Notes: generated from the letters alone by a model not told the origin. DNA of 29,210 bases from a virus (IMGVR_UViG_3300032278_000084:1-29210); one strand, 5' to 3'. Shown: positions 12,743 to 28,855, counted from the stretch's first letter. Program-made: numbers and translations.

Positions 12743-12941
12743 GAAGAAGAATATTAAATACGATACTACTCAGATGAACATATGTACATGTGGAGTAGAA
12801 GCACCAGGGAATACATTTACTTGGGCTAACCTAGGTGGGCACTTAGTATTACTATGTTGGGACTGTACAGATAAACTCCATAAGAAAACTATGGCTGATG
12901 AGAATATCAATGAAAGTAGAAATATACAGAAATCTACATAA
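12735..12941 (+). CDS. Small zinc-finger-like protein (68 aa), GTG start
   Basis: Starts at GTG 12735 inside the end of the coiled-coil gene; the N-terminus is basic (MPRKKNIKYD). CTCG at residues 17-20 and CWDC at 41-44 make a four-cysteine site with zinc-ribbon spacing. The 3' end overlaps the next gene. Confidence 0.5.
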   Translation: MPRKKNIKYDTTQMNICTCGVEAPGNTFTWANLGGHLVLLCWDCTDKLHKKTMADENINESRNIQKST

Positions 12942-13296
12942 AAACTGTTGGAGTGTACGGGATAATAAAACTGGTAAAGTAATAGATCATGTAAGGAATA
13001 TACATATTAAGGATGCTACTTTAGTAGTTAGACCAGCAGGAAGAGCAAGAGTTTTGCAGGAAGGCCGAAAGAATGTACATGCTTTTGTTAAGGGTGAAGT
13101 TAGTACATGGGAATCCAAATCTGCCATTTCTATTCCTCTACTTGTAGATGGAGTACCCTTACATATATGTGAAGTAGTTTATAATCCCTACGACCATTCC
13201 TCGTTTGTTGAGAAGGTTACAGGAAAGCCAGTGTTCACAGCTACTCATATATTCTTAACTAGTCTAGGTAAAGCCTATATGGAAGTATCCCCATGA
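12910..13296 (+). CDS. Conserved phage protein, MKVEIYRNLHK-type family
   Basis: A 128-residue protein if started at the ATG at 12910 (an in-frame ATG at 12898 is possible). The segments MKVEIYRNLHKNCWSVRD, RPAGRARVLQEGRKNVHAFV and the C-terminal beta strands match a widely distributed but uncharacterised phage family I recognise by these phrases; I know no biochemical function. It is basic and likely binds nucleic acid, which is inference. It overlaps the Mom-like gene by 4 nt (ATGA), so the two are co-translated. Confidence 0.6.
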   Translation: MKVEIYRNLHKNCWSVRDNKTGKVIDHVRNIHIKDATLVVRPAGRARVLQEGRKNVHAFVKGEVSTWESKSAISIPLLVDGVPLHICEVVYNPYDHSSFVEKVTGKPVFTATHIFLTSLGKAYMEVSP

Positions 13297-14072
13297 AATA
13301 TGATTTCACTATACAAGAACTAAATGCTTACGATGCTGTAGAGTTTATACAAACTAGGCATTATTCTAAAGTGATGCCAAGGTTGACAAAGCATTACTTG
13401 GGGATTTATAATGATGAAGAGTTGGCTGGTGTCCTTACATTAGGGTGGGGAACACAACCGTATAACACTATACATAAGTTGTTCCCTACTCTAGCTAGTA
13501 AGGATTACTATGAGATAGGTAAGATGTGCATGGATGAATCCTATCCTAGGAACTCAGAGACACAGATGCTTGCCAAAGTTCGTAAATGGATACAAGATAA
13601 TCTACCAGAGAAACAATTCTTGTTTACATGGGCTGACGGAATAGTAGGTAAGGTTGGGTATGTATACCAAGCATTTAACTTTCTGTATGGTGGATACATA
13701 TGGACTGATATTTATATAGGGCCAGATGGCGAGAAGATACATCCTAGGTCAACCAGGGAATTGCTTAGAGAGAATGAAGTGTGGGAAGGGAAAGAAAAGT
13801 TATTCTGGTTGACTCATGCCTTTACAGAGTACAAGGGAATACAGAGAATAAAGGGAAAGCAGTTTAGATATATATTGCCACTTAATAAGAATGCAGGGAA
13901 GTTACTAAAAGAATCCACTGTTACATGGAATAAGGAATACCCTAAAGAACATTGTTTAAAGTGGAAGATACGTACAGGATATAAACAATACACTGAACTT
14001 AAGGGAATGCCTTCCTTTGATTTAAGTGTGGTAAATGTGAATAAAAATAATGTAGAGGCGTATAGATGTTAA
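13293..14072 (+). CDS. Mom-like DNA-modification protein (GNAT fold)
   Basis: A 259-residue protein resembling the Mom family, whose phage Mu member converts adenine in DNA to N6-methylcarbamoyladenine and blocks restriction. Matching features are the N-terminal TRHYSKVMPR (residues 21-30), LGIYNDEELAGVLTLGWG (acetyltransferase-like beta hairpin), a CMDESYPRNSETQMLAKVRK helix that resembles a cofactor-binding segment, and FTWADGIVGKVGYVYQAFNF. Mom acts on double-stranded DNA before packaging. Neighbours are a conserved phage protein, coupled by ATGA, and a DUF1599 protein upstream. A consensus promoter (TTGACA-18-TATAAT, 13383-13412) lies inside the coding sequence. The family call is good; the modification made here is unproven. 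Confidence 0.7.
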   Translation: MKYDFTIQELNAYDAVEFIQTRHYSKVMPRLTKHYLGIYNDEELAGVLTLGWGTQPYNTIHKLFPTLASKDYYEIGKMCMDESYPRNSETQMLAKVRKWIQDNLPEKQFLFTWADGIVGKVGYVYQAFNFLYGGYIWTDIYIGPDGEKIHPRSTRELLRENEVWEGKEKLFWLTHAFTEYKGIQRIKGKQFRYILPLNKNAGKLLKESTVTWNKEYPKEHCLKWKIRTGYKQYTELKGMPSFDLSVVNVNKNNVEAYRC

Positions 14073-25527: not shown

Positions 25528-25581
25528 TTGACAGAAGTCCAGCCAGATGGCATAATAGTGGCACAGTCGAAACAGAGACTG
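25528..25581 (+). promoter_or_regulatory. Promoter with 5'-terminal hairpin (unit A of duplicated pair)
   Basis: TTGACA (25528-25533), 17 bp, CATAAT (25551-25556). The predicted start is near 25563; CAGTC (25564-25568) and GACTG (25577-25581) make a stem-loop at the 5' end. The same arrangement, with CGGTC/GACCG, precedes the paralogous gene at 26799. Confidence 0.8.
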
Positions 25582-25605
25582 ATACAGCACATAGGAGTAA
25601 ACGTT

Positions 25606-25839
25606 ATGGCTAGTCCTAAGAGTCAAGGCAAATTACCAGAGGCTATGGTTCCAGGGTTCTACACTCTAGACGGTAAGGATGTAGCAGTAGTTATAGTACC
25701 AGTAGACCACGCTACTACCAAGCCAGCTACAGACAAGGGTAACACTACGGTAGGACACTACCGTGAAGACCTAAGCGGTAGTGACGGTAAGGTATACACA
25801 TTCAGCGGTATGTGCTACAGACACGATAGGAAGAAGTAG
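25606..25839 (+). CDS. Small conserved protein, paralogue A
   Basis: A 77-residue protein; start at 25606 after AGGAGTAAACGTT. It is almost identical to the product of 26799 (about 65 of 70 aligned residues: GKLPEAMVPGFYTLDGKDVA, VGHYREDLSG, DGKVYTFSGMCYRHDRKK), while synonymous positions differ throughout. The pattern suggests a compact beta protein under strong purifying selection. I do not recognise the family. Promoter, 5' hairpin and start context are duplicated too. Codons here are A/T-leaning; the paralogue uses C/G endings. Confidence 0.65.
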   Translation: MASPKSQGKLPEAMVPGFYTLDGKDVAVVIVPVDHATTKPATDKGNTTVGHYREDLSGSDGKVYTFSGMCYRHDRKK

Positions 25840-25852
25840 CACACGGTAAGGG

Positions 25853-25870
25853 GTAGGGCTTACGCCCTAC
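25853..25870 (+). terminator. Hairpin after paralogue A
   Basis: GTAGGGC (25853-25859), loop TTAC, GCCCTAC (25864-25870), extendable outward by GG/CC and TA pairs. There is no T-run; it begins 14 nt after the stop and probably terminates or stabilises the transcript. Confidence 0.55.
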
Positions 25871-25883
25871 TCCCTACCAGGAG

Positions 25884-25915
25884 GGATATATCCCCCTCCC
25901 CTGTACGTCCCCCTT
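25884..25915 (+). repeat. Bipartite 32-bp repeat, copy 1
   Basis: GGATATATCCCCCTCCCC, seven variable bases (TGTACGT), CCCCCTT. The next promoter's -35 begins 4 nt later. Copies 2-4 are at 25957, 27124 and 28195. Confidence 0.85.
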
Positions 25916-25919
25916 CAGG

Positions 25920-25948
25920 TTGACAAAAGTCTAAATCTGTGGTAGACT
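25920..25948 (+). promoter_or_regulatory. Promoter for a non-coding transcript
   Basis: TTGACA (25920-25925), 17 bp, TAGACT (25943-25948), with AGTCTA/TAGACT inverted over the spacer and -10. The start is near 25955, where the second bipartite repeat begins. No gene follows before the next promoter at 26080. Confidence 0.75.
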
Positions 25949-25955
25949 GTCTTAC

Positions 25956-26078
25956 GGGATATATCCCCCTCCCCCTCAGATCCCCCTTATAGGAATCTTG
26001 CTGGGAACCTATATAGGTATACTATATATAGTATATATACCCTACATACATATACTATATAGGGTATCTATAAGGGGG
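25956..26078 (+). ncRNA. Candidate small structured RNA
   Basis: Promoter-driven, without coding capacity. It begins with GGGATATATCCC (self-complementary) in repeat copy 2. CCCCCTTATAG (25982-25992) and CTATAAGGGGG (26068-26078) close an A+T-rich domain containing CCTATATAGG and ATACTATATATAGTAT palindromes. The 3' arm abuts the next -35 box. It could be a regulatory RNA or a DNA-level element such as an origin or operator cluster. Confidence 0.45.
25957..25988 (+). repeat. Bipartite 32-bp repeat, copy 2
   Basis: Same two blocks with variable bases CTCAGAT. The 22 nt after it resemble those after copy 3 (both contain TTGCTGGGAAC). Confidence 0.85.
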
Positions 26079-26079
26079 G

Positions 26080-26120
26080 TTGACGGGAACCTGGGAACCT
26101 GTTACACTGACCGTGGTCAG
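26080..26120 (+). promoter_or_regulatory. Promoter with palindrome at the start site
   Basis: TTGACG (26080-26085), 17 bp with a repeated GGGAACCT, TACACT (26103-26108). CTGACC-GT-GGTCAG (26107-26120) spans the expected start near 26115 and may be an operator. It drives the gene at 26149. Confidence 0.65.
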
Positions 26121-26148
26121 GAATTCAAGGCGGGGCAGGAGTATAGGA

Positions 26149-26319
26149 ATGCTAGGACTAACCATAGCTAGGTCAGTACTGGGAACTATAGTTAGATGGG
26201 AACCTGTAAAGGAGATACATATAGGTAGGCTATATCTAGTATTACAATCCCCTATATCTGGTAGGTATGTCTGTCGTAGAAAGAGGTTGACGGAAATCCC
26301 AATTTCCCGTATGCTGTAG
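26149..26319 (+). CDS. Hypothetical small basic protein (56 aa)
   Basis: The preferred start is the ATG at 26149 after CAGGAG; longer frames begin in the -35 box at 26080. Hydrophobic at first (MLGLTIARSVLGTIVRW), then basic (GRYVCRRKRL). It could be membrane associated. Its 3' end contains the next promoter. Moderate doubt that it is expressed. Confidence 0.4.
   Translation: MLGLTIARSVLGTIVRWEPVKEIHIGRLYLVLQSPISGRYVCRRKRLTEIPISRML
26287..26315 (+). promoter_or_regulatory. Promoter for the L7/L12-like gene
   Basis: TTGACG (26287-26292), 17 bp, TATGCT (26310-26315), GG before the -35. The start near 26322 gives a leader of about 26 nt with GGAGAGGAG before the gene at 26348. Confidence 0.7.
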
Positions 26320-26347
26320 GCACATTCAAGTCGGAGAGGAGTTAGGG

Positions 26348-26704
26348 ATGTTTGCTAACTACACCACCAAAGAGGTACTGAGGCCCGTAACCCAGGAAGT
26401 CATCAAATCCTTTACCTTCCAGATAACCATGCCTGTAGAGGTAGTACGGGAAATAGTAGAGCGGAACTTTGTTTCTACTGGGAACTATGGTAGGGCGGGG
26501 TTCAATAAGATTACCGCTATCAAGGAACTACGGGAACTGGGAACTATCCGTTCTAATGGGGCTAACTGCTGTGTATCCCTAGGCTTACGGGAAGCAAAGG
26601 AAATGATAGAGGAGGTATATCGGGAAGGGGAACAAGACGGGAACTACCATGCTACCACTCCCACAGGCTGGGTAGATAACCTAGACGATGGCCTACCCTT
26701 CTAG
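26348..26704 (+). CDS. Protein with ribosomal L7/L12 C-terminal-domain-like motif
   Basis: A 118-residue protein. NKITAIKELREL (53-64) and SLGLREAKEMIEE (77-89) closely match the two helices of the L7/L12 C-terminal domain, which recruits translation GTPases; a 12-residue insertion with two Cys lies between them. The preceding beta strand (SFTFQITMP) also fits. The N-terminal dimerisation domain of true L7/L12 is absent. Such short proteins could act as decoys or modulators of host translation, but this is inference. C/G-ending codons are frequent. It has its own promoter, and a terminator hairpin fused to the next promoter follows. Confidence 0.55.
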   Translation: MFANYTTKEVLRPVTQEVIKSFTFQITMPVEVVREIVERNFVSTGNYGRAGFNKITAIKELRELGTIRSNGANCCVSLGLREAKEMIEEVYREGEQDGNYHATTPTGWVDNLDDGLPF

Positions 26705-26712
26705 GGTAGGTA

Positions 26713-26775
26713 CAGGCTGGGTTGACAAGAGTCCAGCCTGGGCCTATACTAGTGGCACGGTCAGCAAGCAGACCG
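26713..26775 (+). promoter_or_regulatory. Fused terminator/promoter plus 5' hairpin (unit B of duplicated pair)
   Basis: CAGGCTGG (26713-26720) and CCAGCCTG (26733-26740) form a stem starting 9 nt after the stop at 26704; the -35 TTGACA (26722-26727) lies in its loop. The -10 TATACT is at 26745-26750 (17-bp spacer). CGGTC (26758-26762) and GACCG (26771-26775) form a hairpin at the predicted 5' end. Compared with unit A, both arms of this hairpin changed together. Confidence 0.8.
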
Positions 26776-26798
26776 AATCAAACAACAGGTGAAACGTT

Positions 26799-27035
26799 AT
26801 GGCTACCGCCCCCAAGTCCCTAGGCAAACTGCCCGAAGCCATGGTACCTGGTTTCTATACCCTAGATGGCAAAGATGTTGCCGTGGTTATAGTTCCGGTT
26901 GACCACACCACCATCAAGCCGCCCACCGATAAGGGCAACGTGACTGTCGGGCACTACCGAGAGGATTTATCTGGTACCGATGGCAAGGTCTACACCTTCT
27001 CTGGCATGTGCTACCGCCATGACCGCAAAAAGTAG
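26799..27035 (+). CDS. Small conserved protein, paralogue B
   Basis: A 78-residue near twin of the product of 25606, with five substitutions over the last 70 residues. It is encoded with many C/G-ending codons (GCC, CCC, ACC, GGC), unlike paralogue A. The shared start context AACGTTATGGCTA and homologous promoter show duplication of the whole unit. No family is recognised. The coding difference points to an old duplication or exchange with a relative. Confidence 0.65.
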   Translation: MATAPKSLGKLPEAMVPGFYTLDGKDVAVVIVPVDHTTIKPPTDKGNVTVGHYREDLSGTDGKVYTFSGMCYRHDRKK

Positions 27036-27043
27036 GTAGCCCG

Positions 27044-27117
27044 TAGGGGCGGGGTTGACAAAATCCCGCCCCTATGTTATAATAAAGAGGGAACCTACAA
27101 CCTGTGAAATTTCCCTC
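27044..27117 (+). promoter_or_regulatory. Fused terminator/promoter, perfect consensus, plus 5' hairpin
   Basis: TAGGGGCGGG (27044-27053) and CCCGCCCCTA (27065-27074) pair over an 11-nt loop that contains TTGACA (27055-27060); TATAAT is at 27078-27083 with a 17-bp spacer, a perfect consensus promoter. The stem starts 9 nt after the stop. GAGGGAA (27087-27093) and TTCCCTC (27111-27117) form a hairpin at the predicted transcript start. Confidence 0.8.
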
Positions 27118-27262
27118 CACCAGGGATATATCCCCCTCCCCCCTGCGACCCCCTTACGGGAACATTGCTGGGAACATGCTGGGAACATAGGGGTAGACCC
27201 CCCCACCACCATACCCCTACAATGGCCCTGAGAGCCACGTACAGCGGTCTTACTTGGGCGGG
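27087..27262 (+). ncRNA. Candidate non-coding transcript
   Basis: The perfect-consensus promoter at 27055 leads into about 175 nt with no credible gene (the longest frame is a 14-codon ATG frame). It holds a 5' hairpin, repeat copy 3, a tandem GCTGGGAACAT (27167-27188) and a TAGGGGTA/TACCCCTA inverted repeat. It is similar in content to 25956-26078, suggesting a second member of the same RNA or regulatory class. Confidence 0.4.
27124..27155 (+). repeat. Bipartite 32-bp repeat, copy 3
   Basis: Same blocks with variable bases CCTGCGA, followed by a 22-nt stretch resembling the one after copy 2. Confidence 0.85.
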
Positions 27263-27312
27263 TTGACAATAGTCTATCCAGAGCATACAATGGTGTAGCA
27301 GTCAAGAGACTG
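27263..27312 (+). promoter_or_regulatory. Promoter with 5'-terminal hairpin
   Basis: TTGACA (27263-27268), 17 bp, TACAAT (27286-27291). CAGTC (27299-27303), loop AAGA, GACTG (27308-27312) sits at the predicted 5' end (start near 27298). It drives the gene at 27335. Confidence 0.8.
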
Positions 27313-27334
27313 ACATTACATCAAGGGGTACAGT

Positions 27335-27532
27335 ATGTTGGGAGCCAGCTACAAGACAAAGAAAGCCTGTCGGGAGTCTATTGGACAGGAACCACGGTTT
27401 GTGGAAACATCCATGTTTGGTCTGGAATTCACTGGTGACGGGAAGTACACTGTAGTCGGGCCATCGCCTACTCTACGTAAATGGTTTGCCCAAGTAACCA
27501 TACTCAATGGGGTAATCACTAAAGTAACCTAG
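27335..27532 (+). CDS. Hypothetical small basic protein (65 aa)
   Basis: Starts after AAGGGG on its own promoter; a fused terminator/promoter follows 9 nt after the stop. It begins MLGASYKTKKACRESIGQEP and then appears beta-rich (FTGDGKYTVVGPSPTLRKWF). No family is recognised. Confidence 0.6.
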   Translation: MLGASYKTKKACRESIGQEPRFVETSMFGLEFTGDGKYTVVGPSPTLRKWFAQVTILNGVITKVT

Positions 27533-27540
27533 ATTGAGCC

Positions 27541-27609
27541 TAGCCTACCTATAGGTTGACAACAGTTTATAGGTAGGCTATACTTTAGTTGCAGTCGAGA
27601 AAGCGGCTG
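27541..27609 (+). promoter_or_regulatory. Fused terminator/promoter (13-bp stem) plus 5' hairpin
   Basis: TAGCCTACCTATA (27541-27553) pairs perfectly with TATAGGTAGGCTA (27568-27580); the loop holds TTGACA (27556-27561). The -10 TATACT (27579-27584) overlaps the 3' arm, 17-bp spacer. CAGTC (27592-27596) and GGCTG (27605-27609) make the 5' hairpin. The stem starts 9 nt after the stop at 27532. Confidence 0.8.
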
Positions 27610-27632
27610 ACATTACATCGGGGGTAACCACA

Positions 27633-27944
27633 ATGTCTGACAAACTAAATCTAGAGGATAAACTGAACCAACACGATTCTAATCACTTTGATGAATTGGT
27701 AGAGTTAAACGTCTGGTCGTATAAAGATTTAGAATACGTTAGCAAGCGGCACAAGTTCCAACCTAACAAAATTAATCGTATTGCATATCTAGTCGGTGAA
27801 TTCTATATTGAGACTAGCAAGGGCAAAGTTTGTTTCCGCTGTGACAATAATCTATACGCTGAAAACGTTGACCATTCCCAAGGTCAATTCCATCATAAAA
27901 AGTGCCCCAAGGATTCTAACAATAAAATCTACAATATAGTGTAG
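27633..27944 (+). CDS. Hypothetical CxxC...HxxC protein (103 aa)
   Basis: Helical N-terminal half (LELVELNVW-type packing), then CFRC at residues 67-70 and HHKKC around 87-91, a likely zinc site. It has its own promoter and a Shine-Dalgarno-like GGGGG, and a 12-bp terminator/promoter hairpin follows 11 nt after the stop. No family is recognised. Confidence 0.55.
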   Translation: MSDKLNLEDKLNQHDSNHFDELVELNVWSYKDLEYVSKRHKFQPNKINRIAYLVGEFYIETSKGKVCFRCDNNLYAENVDHSQGQFHHKKCPKDSNNKIYNIV

Positions 27945-27954
27945 GGTGGTAGTG

Positions 27955-27993
27955 CTAGGGTGGTTGACACTTTCAACCACCCTAGGTTATAAT
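27955..27993 (+). promoter_or_regulatory. Fused terminator/promoter (12-bp stem)
   Basis: CTAGGGTGGTTG (27955-27966) and CAACCACCCTAG (27974-27985) pair perfectly over a 7-nt loop; the -35 TTGACA (27964-27969) overlaps the stem and loop, and TATAAT is at 27988-27993 (18-bp spacer). It drives the small gene at 28038. Confidence 0.8.
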
Positions 27994-28037
27994 AATGGTG
28001 TCGGGGGTAAACAAAATTTAGTTTCAAGAGGTAAAAC

Positions 28038-28145
28038 ATGATAGACGGTATGGTAATTAGGGTAGTATGCAAGGTCAAGGATTTATCCATCGAAATTGAA
28101 AAAGCGTGGTTTCAGGCCGTAGCTCAAAAATATCCTCAAGGCTAG
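28038..28145 (+). CDS. Micro-protein (35 aa)
   Basis: ATG at 28038 after AAGAGG, stop TAG at 28143-28145. The sequence MIDGMVIRVVCKVKDLSIEI continues as an amphipathic helix (EKAWFQAVAQKYPQG). It has its own consensus promoter and a strong terminator-like hairpin, so it is very likely expressed in spite of its size. Confidence 0.6.
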   Translation: MIDGMVIRVVCKVKDLSIEIEKAWFQAVAQKYPQG

Positions 28146-28151
28146 TTTCCC

Positions 28152-28186
28152 GTCAAGGCTGTGGTTTACCCCCCCACAGTCTTGAC
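28152..28186 (+). terminator. Hairpin after the 35-aa gene
   Basis: GTCAAGGCTGTGG (28152-28164) pairs with CCACAGTCTTGAC (28174-28186), 13 pairs including one G-U, starting 6 nt after the stop. No T-run follows. Confidence 0.7.
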
Positions 28187-28194
28187 TCCATCTA

Positions 28195-28226
28195 GGATAT
28201 ATCCCCCTCCCCCACCACGCCCCCTT
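28195..28226 (+). repeat. Bipartite 32-bp repeat, copy 4
   Basis: Same blocks with variable bases CACCACG. It lies between the hairpin at 28152 and the promoter at 28242. Confidence 0.85.
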
Positions 28227-28230
28227 ATGC

Positions 28231-28290
28231 CCCCCATATGGTTGACATATATATTCCTATAGGTTAGTATTTTTATATCAAATATGGGGG
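28231..28290 (+). promoter_or_regulatory. Promoter enclosed by an inverted repeat that includes the ribosome-binding site
   Basis: TTGACA (28242-28247), 17 bp, TAGTAT (28265-28270). CCCCCATAT (28231-28239) and ATATGGGGG (28282-28290) flank it; the right arm contains the GGGGG Shine-Dalgarno of the gene at 28296. Only read-through transcripts would contain both arms and hide the site. Confidence 0.65.
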
Positions 28291-28371: not shown

Positions 28372-28425
28372 TTGACGATAGTTTAGATATCCTATATACT
28401 GTAGGTACAGTCTCAAGAGAGGCTG
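28372..28425 (+). promoter_or_regulatory. Promoter with 5'-terminal hairpin
   Basis: TTGACG (28372-28377), 17 bp, TATACT (28395-28400). CAGTCTC (28408-28414), loop AAGA, GAGGCTG (28419-28425) makes a 7-bp stem at the predicted 5' end. It drives the gene at 28447. Confidence 0.8.
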
Positions 28426-28446
28426 AAATTTGAGGGGGTTTACCTA

Positions 28447-28792: not shown

Positions 28793-28855
28793 TGGGGCGG
28801 GTTGACAAAACCCGCCCCATACCCTATACTAAAGGTGTCTTAAGAAATAACTTAA
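28793..28855 (+). promoter_or_regulatory. Fused terminator/promoter plus 5' hairpin
   Basis: TGGGGCGGG (28793-28801) and CCCGCCCCA (28811-28819) form a 9-bp stem whose 9-nt loop is TTGACAAAA, i.e. the -35 (28802-28807). TATACT is at 28825-28830 (17-bp spacer). TTAAG/CTTAA (28840-28855) is a leader hairpin. The stem starts 8 nt after the stop at 28785. Confidence 0.8.

Follow-up and report, generated by a model that had tools for sequence, protein, structure and literature searches.

A conserved C-tract element repeated in the early region of five related phages is a candidate protein-binding DNA site

Iteron origins, of the lambda type and of iteron plasmids, carry short repeats at helical spacing beside AT-rich DNA, and mitochondrial CSB II is a C/G-tract near a replication/transcription boundary. 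The stoperators of the cluster A mycobacteriophages L5 and TipsytheTRex are asymmetric, occur in many copies in short intergenic spaces and keep one orientation relative to transcription; those of L5 are 13 bp long, number more than 20 genome-wide and are bound by the known immunity repressor of temperate phages (PMC9283540). SPBRE of Bacillus phage SPbeta, a repeated intergenic 15-bp motif near promoters, was first seen merely as a repeat and later proven to be a repressor site, bound by MrpR/YopR, a lysogeny repressor related to recombinases (PMC10516654). Here we describe an intergenic element from a group of uncultured tailed phages; it is genuine, rare and highly conserved, and we weigh the roles it might play.

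The window, a stretch of viral DNA of 29,210 nucleotides analysed at its full length, encodes proteins of a tailed phage (major head protein, prohead protease, neck protein and a Mom-like protein). GGATATATCCCCCTCCCC-N7-CCCCCTT occurs exactly four times on its plus strand, at the positions given in a preliminary description of this DNA (Table 1), with 0 mismatches in both blocks. A search allowing up to 3 mismatches found no fifth copy in the window, and 100 dinucleotide shuffles of the window gave 0 matches (chance expectation 0). As described earlier, all four copies lie in gene-free gaps and in one orientation, and the longer similarity of copies 2 and 3 is confirmed; it reaches TTGCTGGGAAC, with 81% identity across 53 nt. 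A third G in copies 1-3 gives GGGATATATCCC, a perfect 12-bp palindrome. Elsewhere in the window, homologues of mycobacteriophage L5 gp82 (12898-13296; PF25735, E 8e-33) and of the Mom DNA modification protein (13293-14072; PF25680) lie side by side.

Table 1. Coordinates of the element copies and neighbouring features in the window.
Feature	Position	Strand	Remarks
Dyad upstream of copy 1, GC-rich	25845-25878	+	terminator-like, without T-run; score 27 (random 95th percentile 21)
Element copy 1	25884-25915 (25883 including extra G)	+	GGGATATATCCCCCTCCCC TGTACGT CCCCCTT; exact match; profile 38.5 bits, E 1.9e-10
Sigma70-like promoter	25920-25948	+	gene-free up to copy 2
Element copy 2	25957-25988 (25956 including extra G)	+	spacer CTCAGAT; exact match and profile
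GGGAAC repeat 3' of copy 2	26003-26008	+	offset +47; degenerate TAGGAAT precedes at +34
AT-rich, TA-step-rich 60 bp past copy 2	26013-26072		least stable 60-bp duplex of whole contig
Next promoter past copy 2	26080-26108	+	two GGGAAC between -35 and -10
Dyad upstream of copy 3, GC-rich	27044-27074	+	TTGACA in loop
Consensus sigma70 promoter, 12/12	27055-27083	+	points into copy 3, no intervening gene
Element copy 3	27124-27155 (27123 including extra G)	+	spacer CCTGCGA; exact match and profile
Three GGGAAC repeats 3' of copy 3	27158-27186	+	at 27158, 27170 and 27181; 11-12 bp apart
Next promoter past copy 3	27263-27291	+	promoter scan
Dyad upstream of copy 4	28152-28186	+	dyad scoring
Element copy 4	28195-28226	+	spacer CACCACG; left end AGGATATATCC; exact match and profile
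Next promoter past copy 4	28242-28270	+	promoter scan

We scanned 2.9 million viral contigs three times, each time with a looser pattern, and always recovered the same four relatives: L001 (64.7 kb, 3 copies), L002 (32 kb, 3 copies), L003 (23 kb, 2 copies) and L004 (27.6 kb, 2 copies). With the window, the family comprises 14 copies in five phages, copies at matching positions not being independent of one another. The remaining matches to the loose patterns were chance or plain C-rich DNA, and loci L023-L026 and L152 were rejected as elements on these grounds. For the most part the contigs are colinear with the window, at 72-98% identity by piece, and the major capsid protein is 88-94% identical among contigs where it is present. 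Across the five genomes (177 kb), GGATATATCC (13 occurrences) and CCCCCTCCCC (14 occurrences) are confined to elements and, promoter sequence aside, the element is almost the sole 13-mer present at least 3 times in the carrier genomes. A 14-copy profile found no further or diverged copies in 662 kb of other capsid-linked relatives, most of whose contigs miss the early region. One public contig contains an N-filled scaffold gap with identical sequence on both sides, an assembly artefact (L158 11532-11700; G002 31532-31700).

We searched 84,980 bacterial and archaeal genomes for an exact 17-base match and obtained 14 isolated hits. In none of them did the second block follow within the printed context, so these hits are probably chance, and a host-derived repeat or mobile element was rejected. 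Named phages gave no DNA match to the element region; one match to copy 3, of 33 bases only, was discarded as chance. The nearest named phages of the window show a weak capsid match, the best below 60% identity over under half the length of the major capsid protein. The sample codes of the public contigs suggest that the phages are marine.

In all five phages the genes around the element are small, and most have a separate sigma70 promoter close to consensus; the last 4.3 kb of the window holds 28 promoter-like sites against 8.4 expected. All 14 copies occupy an intergenic gap, on the coding strand and ahead of the next promoter; the scatter through coding regions against which the preliminary description had warned was not seen. 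A site typically runs from a gene through a dyad, the element, GGGAAC repeats and an AT-rich stretch to a promoter and a gene. Upstream of 12 of the 14 copies, no more than 60 bp away, stands a GC-rich, terminator-like dyad whose score reaches or exceeds the 95th percentile of random positions. The dyads before copies L2c and L3b have a clear T-run and resemble intrinsic terminators, and some others wrap a promoter -35 or -10. A strong promoter is found 8-85 nt before six of the copies with no intervening gene, window copy 2 beginning 8 bp past a -10 hexamer. Between the element and the next -35 lie anywhere from 37 to 184 bp or more, the core and the promoter hexamers never overlap, and roughly one early promoter in two is without an element.

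The early promoters have features of their own. Often they sit inside perfect inverted repeats rich in GC, whose loop carries TTGACA or whose centre falls on the -10 (window 27541-27584, 27044-27083, 27950-27993 and 28794-28830; G002 29355, G003 21216, G004 26931); in four phages, 12 of 29 beat 95% of their own shuffles. Such dyads may be operators, or else terminators that reach into the next promoter. Past the -10 of many early promoters lies a short CAGTC-loop-GACTG stem-loop, such as GCAGTCAAGAGACTGAC, that resembles a 5' leader hairpin (window 25557-25572, 27296-27312, 27594-27612 and 28409-28428).

In four phages the gene that follows the first element site bears a weak similarity to the C-terminal domain of ribosomal protein L7/L12. 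The corresponding early protein of the window (118 aa, 26348-26704) shows weak similarity to PF00542, consistent in all 4 members but below the cut-off (best E 0.0017); a fold search of the L12-like protein gave nothing significant, and it is possibly a ribosome or translation-factor mimic. Two paralogous 78-aa proteins of no known family (25603-25839 and 26799-27035) are 87% identical, and poorly alignable proteins take their positions in the element-bearing relatives. A gene-B-type gene precedes the element at most sites, in three poorly alignable groups. All five contigs, possibly fragments, stop 0.6-1.2 kb past their last element copy; the phages therefore probably carry more copies than were seen. 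At the right ends (window, G001, G002, G003 and G004) assembly seems to have been broken by repeated cassettes or by a genome end. Because G004 stops where a repeated gene-B-type gene starts, assembly breaks in repeated cassettes explain these ends better, and we rejected the element as a genome-end marker.

Alignment of the 14 copies gave 20 invariant columns and a core of GGGATATATCCCCCTCCCC-spacer-CCCCC(TT), with the second C-tract five long in 12 of them. The element had been introduced as two blocks around a variable centre of fixed length. That length, 7 bp, holds inside the window and gives way across the family, where nine copies have 7 bp, four have 8 bp and one has 9 bp. Nor does the spacer vary freely: it is biased to CYTRCGT (p<0.0002 against letter shuffles), a consensus that holds after removal of duplicates, and window copy 3 (W3) and the matching L002 copy (L002c) have CCTGCGA in common. 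The fixed variable centre is thus a local truth. Of the two departures in relatives that were thought to speak against that description, a changing spacer length does occur, and drift of the blocks does not. In matching gaps the core is 84-100% identical between phages, with identities of 0.42-0.56 for the 100 bp upstream and 0.47-0.60 for the distal downstream flank; the random values are 0.49 (median) and 0.56 (95th percentile). Retention of the core amid flanks of near-random identity is strong evidence that the element itself is under selection.

We propose, with a probability of roughly 0.45, that the element is a polar protein-binding DNA site of the early region, operator- or stoperator-like. 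Most likely a candidate protein of the phage or its host docks on it to control early gene expression, with a start of replication the less likely role. A putative sequence-specific protein, phage- or host-encoded, would bind this cis-acting element in the early ('host-takeover') region, reading the whole 32-34 bp core GGGATATATCCCCCTCCCC-(CYTRCGT)-CCCCCTT, and its contact would often extend to the GGGAAC repeats about one helical turn apart. Bound between the end of a gene and the next strong promoter, it would block read-through and/or repress early transcription once it has built up. We infer both binding and effect on transcription from the conserved, oriented, multi-copy nature of the element, its blocks kept amid random flanks and the lack of an RNA signal; of the protein-gripped site first suggested, what falls away is the free spacer of fixed length. 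The early promoters without an element count against an operator or stoperator, and a core that overlaps no hexamer, at variable distance from the -35, is unlike a classical operator. The promoters pointing into six copies would suit a transcribed element equally well.

A lysogeny repressor appears unlikely to be the binding protein, because the five contigs yielded neither an HTH_3 repressor-like protein nor, at E<=0.1, a match to tyrosine integrase PF00589; these contigs are possibly fragments, and control genomes were positive. Among the relatives G001 is the most complete, and it has genes of its own for a DnaB-like helicase, a primase, PolA, RecA and a sigma70 region 2 protein, which makes a lytic regulator or initiator more plausible than a lysogeny repressor. 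Gene B was rejected as the binding protein, given its three poorly alignable groups and its absence before L004 copy 1; its predicted fold was too poor to use (pLDDT 51).

The site is composite, with GGGAAC repeats 3' of several cores at about +35, +47 and +58. Between +28 and +95 of the 14 elements, 15 GGGAAC were observed against 1.2 expected, a density twelve-fold that of the rest of the region. Eight of the 14 copies have at least one immediately 3' of the core, the repeats of most arrays are 11-13 bp apart, and window copy 4 is without an array. The strand split of CTGGGAAC (plus to minus) is 15:0 in early regions and 2:3 in the other 160 kb; several of its window copies fall within coding sequence. 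Direct repeats phased in this manner are what an iteron-type origin would have, in which an initiator would bind the core and the GGGAAC repeats, melt AT-rich DNA and load DnaB helicase and primase, with extra copies as secondary origins or titration sites. The weak duplex past window copy 2 (Table 1), the first copies of G002 and G003, whose adjacent duplex is among the weakest 0.6%, the helicase, primase and PolA of the relative, and the placing of all copies at one locus, where GC skew nearly vanishes in most of the five contigs, are consistent with such an origin. However, the weak-duplex signal comes mostly from one genome; at copies other than window copy 2 it is not clearly beyond the random best-of-window (5% quantile 0.004), and an unwinding element beside every copy was rejected, window copy 2 alone being exceptional. 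Moreover, 2-4 copies per genome across 1-2.4 kb would be unusual, no replication initiator was recognised among the proteins scanned, and the GC-skew drop may reflect differing gene content only. As the weak-duplex signal is not general, we rank transcription control first and an origin, which we think unlikely, second. It is a doubtful prospect, although one worth stating, that the element founds a new class of C-tract 'core plus phased iteron' sites, serving as a multi-copy origin or transcription boundary and read at CCCCCTCCCC-N7-9-CCCCC by a new type of DNA-binding protein.

An action in RNA, with the C-rich tract of transcripts serving as an anti-Shine-Dalgarno-like small RNA or as a Rho-loading or antitermination site, seems improbable to us. 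Rho prefers C-rich, G-poor RNA, and transcripts of the element would be of that type; the six copies downstream of a promoter, gene-free in between, would also fit. Against this, the element folds no better than shuffles, except where two tandem palindromes pair (single-copy z -1.45 to +0.76), Rfam gave no worthwhile match, and the outer pair of the palindrome is broken in A-variant copies without compensation; a structured RNA was therefore rejected. Exact identity over 25 bases is not required of Rho sites, and several copies trail terminator-like hairpins without a promoter of their own. Because L2c and L3b follow T-run dyads, the site need not be transcribed. With RNA structure unsupported and several copies behind such hairpins, the element most likely acts as DNA.

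Promoter/stem-loop cassettes of the T4 type are proposed recombination points. That the element is likewise a short stretch of homology for shuffling modular early-gene cassettes, without a protein of its own, is very improbable: duplication is visible (gene B paralogues share 72% DNA identity) and a gene-B-type gene stands before most sites, albeit in poorly alignable groups, but passive repeats should drift, whereas this core is invariant across phages with randomised flanks and its spacer is constrained. Three of the early suggestions are not supported either. A small mobile element is at odds with the matching positions in different phages, and a non-systematic look noticed no terminal repeats. 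A recombinase site finds no tyrosine integrase in the five contigs, and its two arms are not inverted repeats and stand at varying spacer length. For an i-motif or G-quadruplex there are three long C-tracts only, one below the usual four; a bimolecular or hybrid form may exist.

These five phages have remote named relatives only, and their early regions consist almost wholly of small genes without known function. Conservation of the element gives a direct handle on the protein that would control or replicate them, and a clear DNA bait with which to find it. It also indicates that a short exact element can outlast replacement of all surrounding DNA.

Among described systems, the element differs from SPBRE, with its 15 bp and more copies, in that no tyrosine-recombinase-family protein was found in the five element contigs; it resembles SPBRE as a phage-specific intergenic repeat near promoters. 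Unlike L5 stoperators, it is 32-34 bp long, is present in 2-4 copies at one locus, is unrelated in sequence and has no repressor or integrase found with it (searches for HTH_3 and PF00589 in five contigs); like them, it is asymmetric, multi-copy, intergenic and oriented with transcription, on the coding strand in 14 of 14 copies. A conserved C-tract core, several dispersed copies and no recognised initiator gene set it apart from iteron origins, with which it shares helically spaced short repeats and, most clearly past window copy 2, AT-rich DNA beside them. Finally, the element gives no sign of a G-rich minus-strand transcript, and its CCCCC-T-CCCCC-like tract is reminiscent of mitochondrial CSB II.
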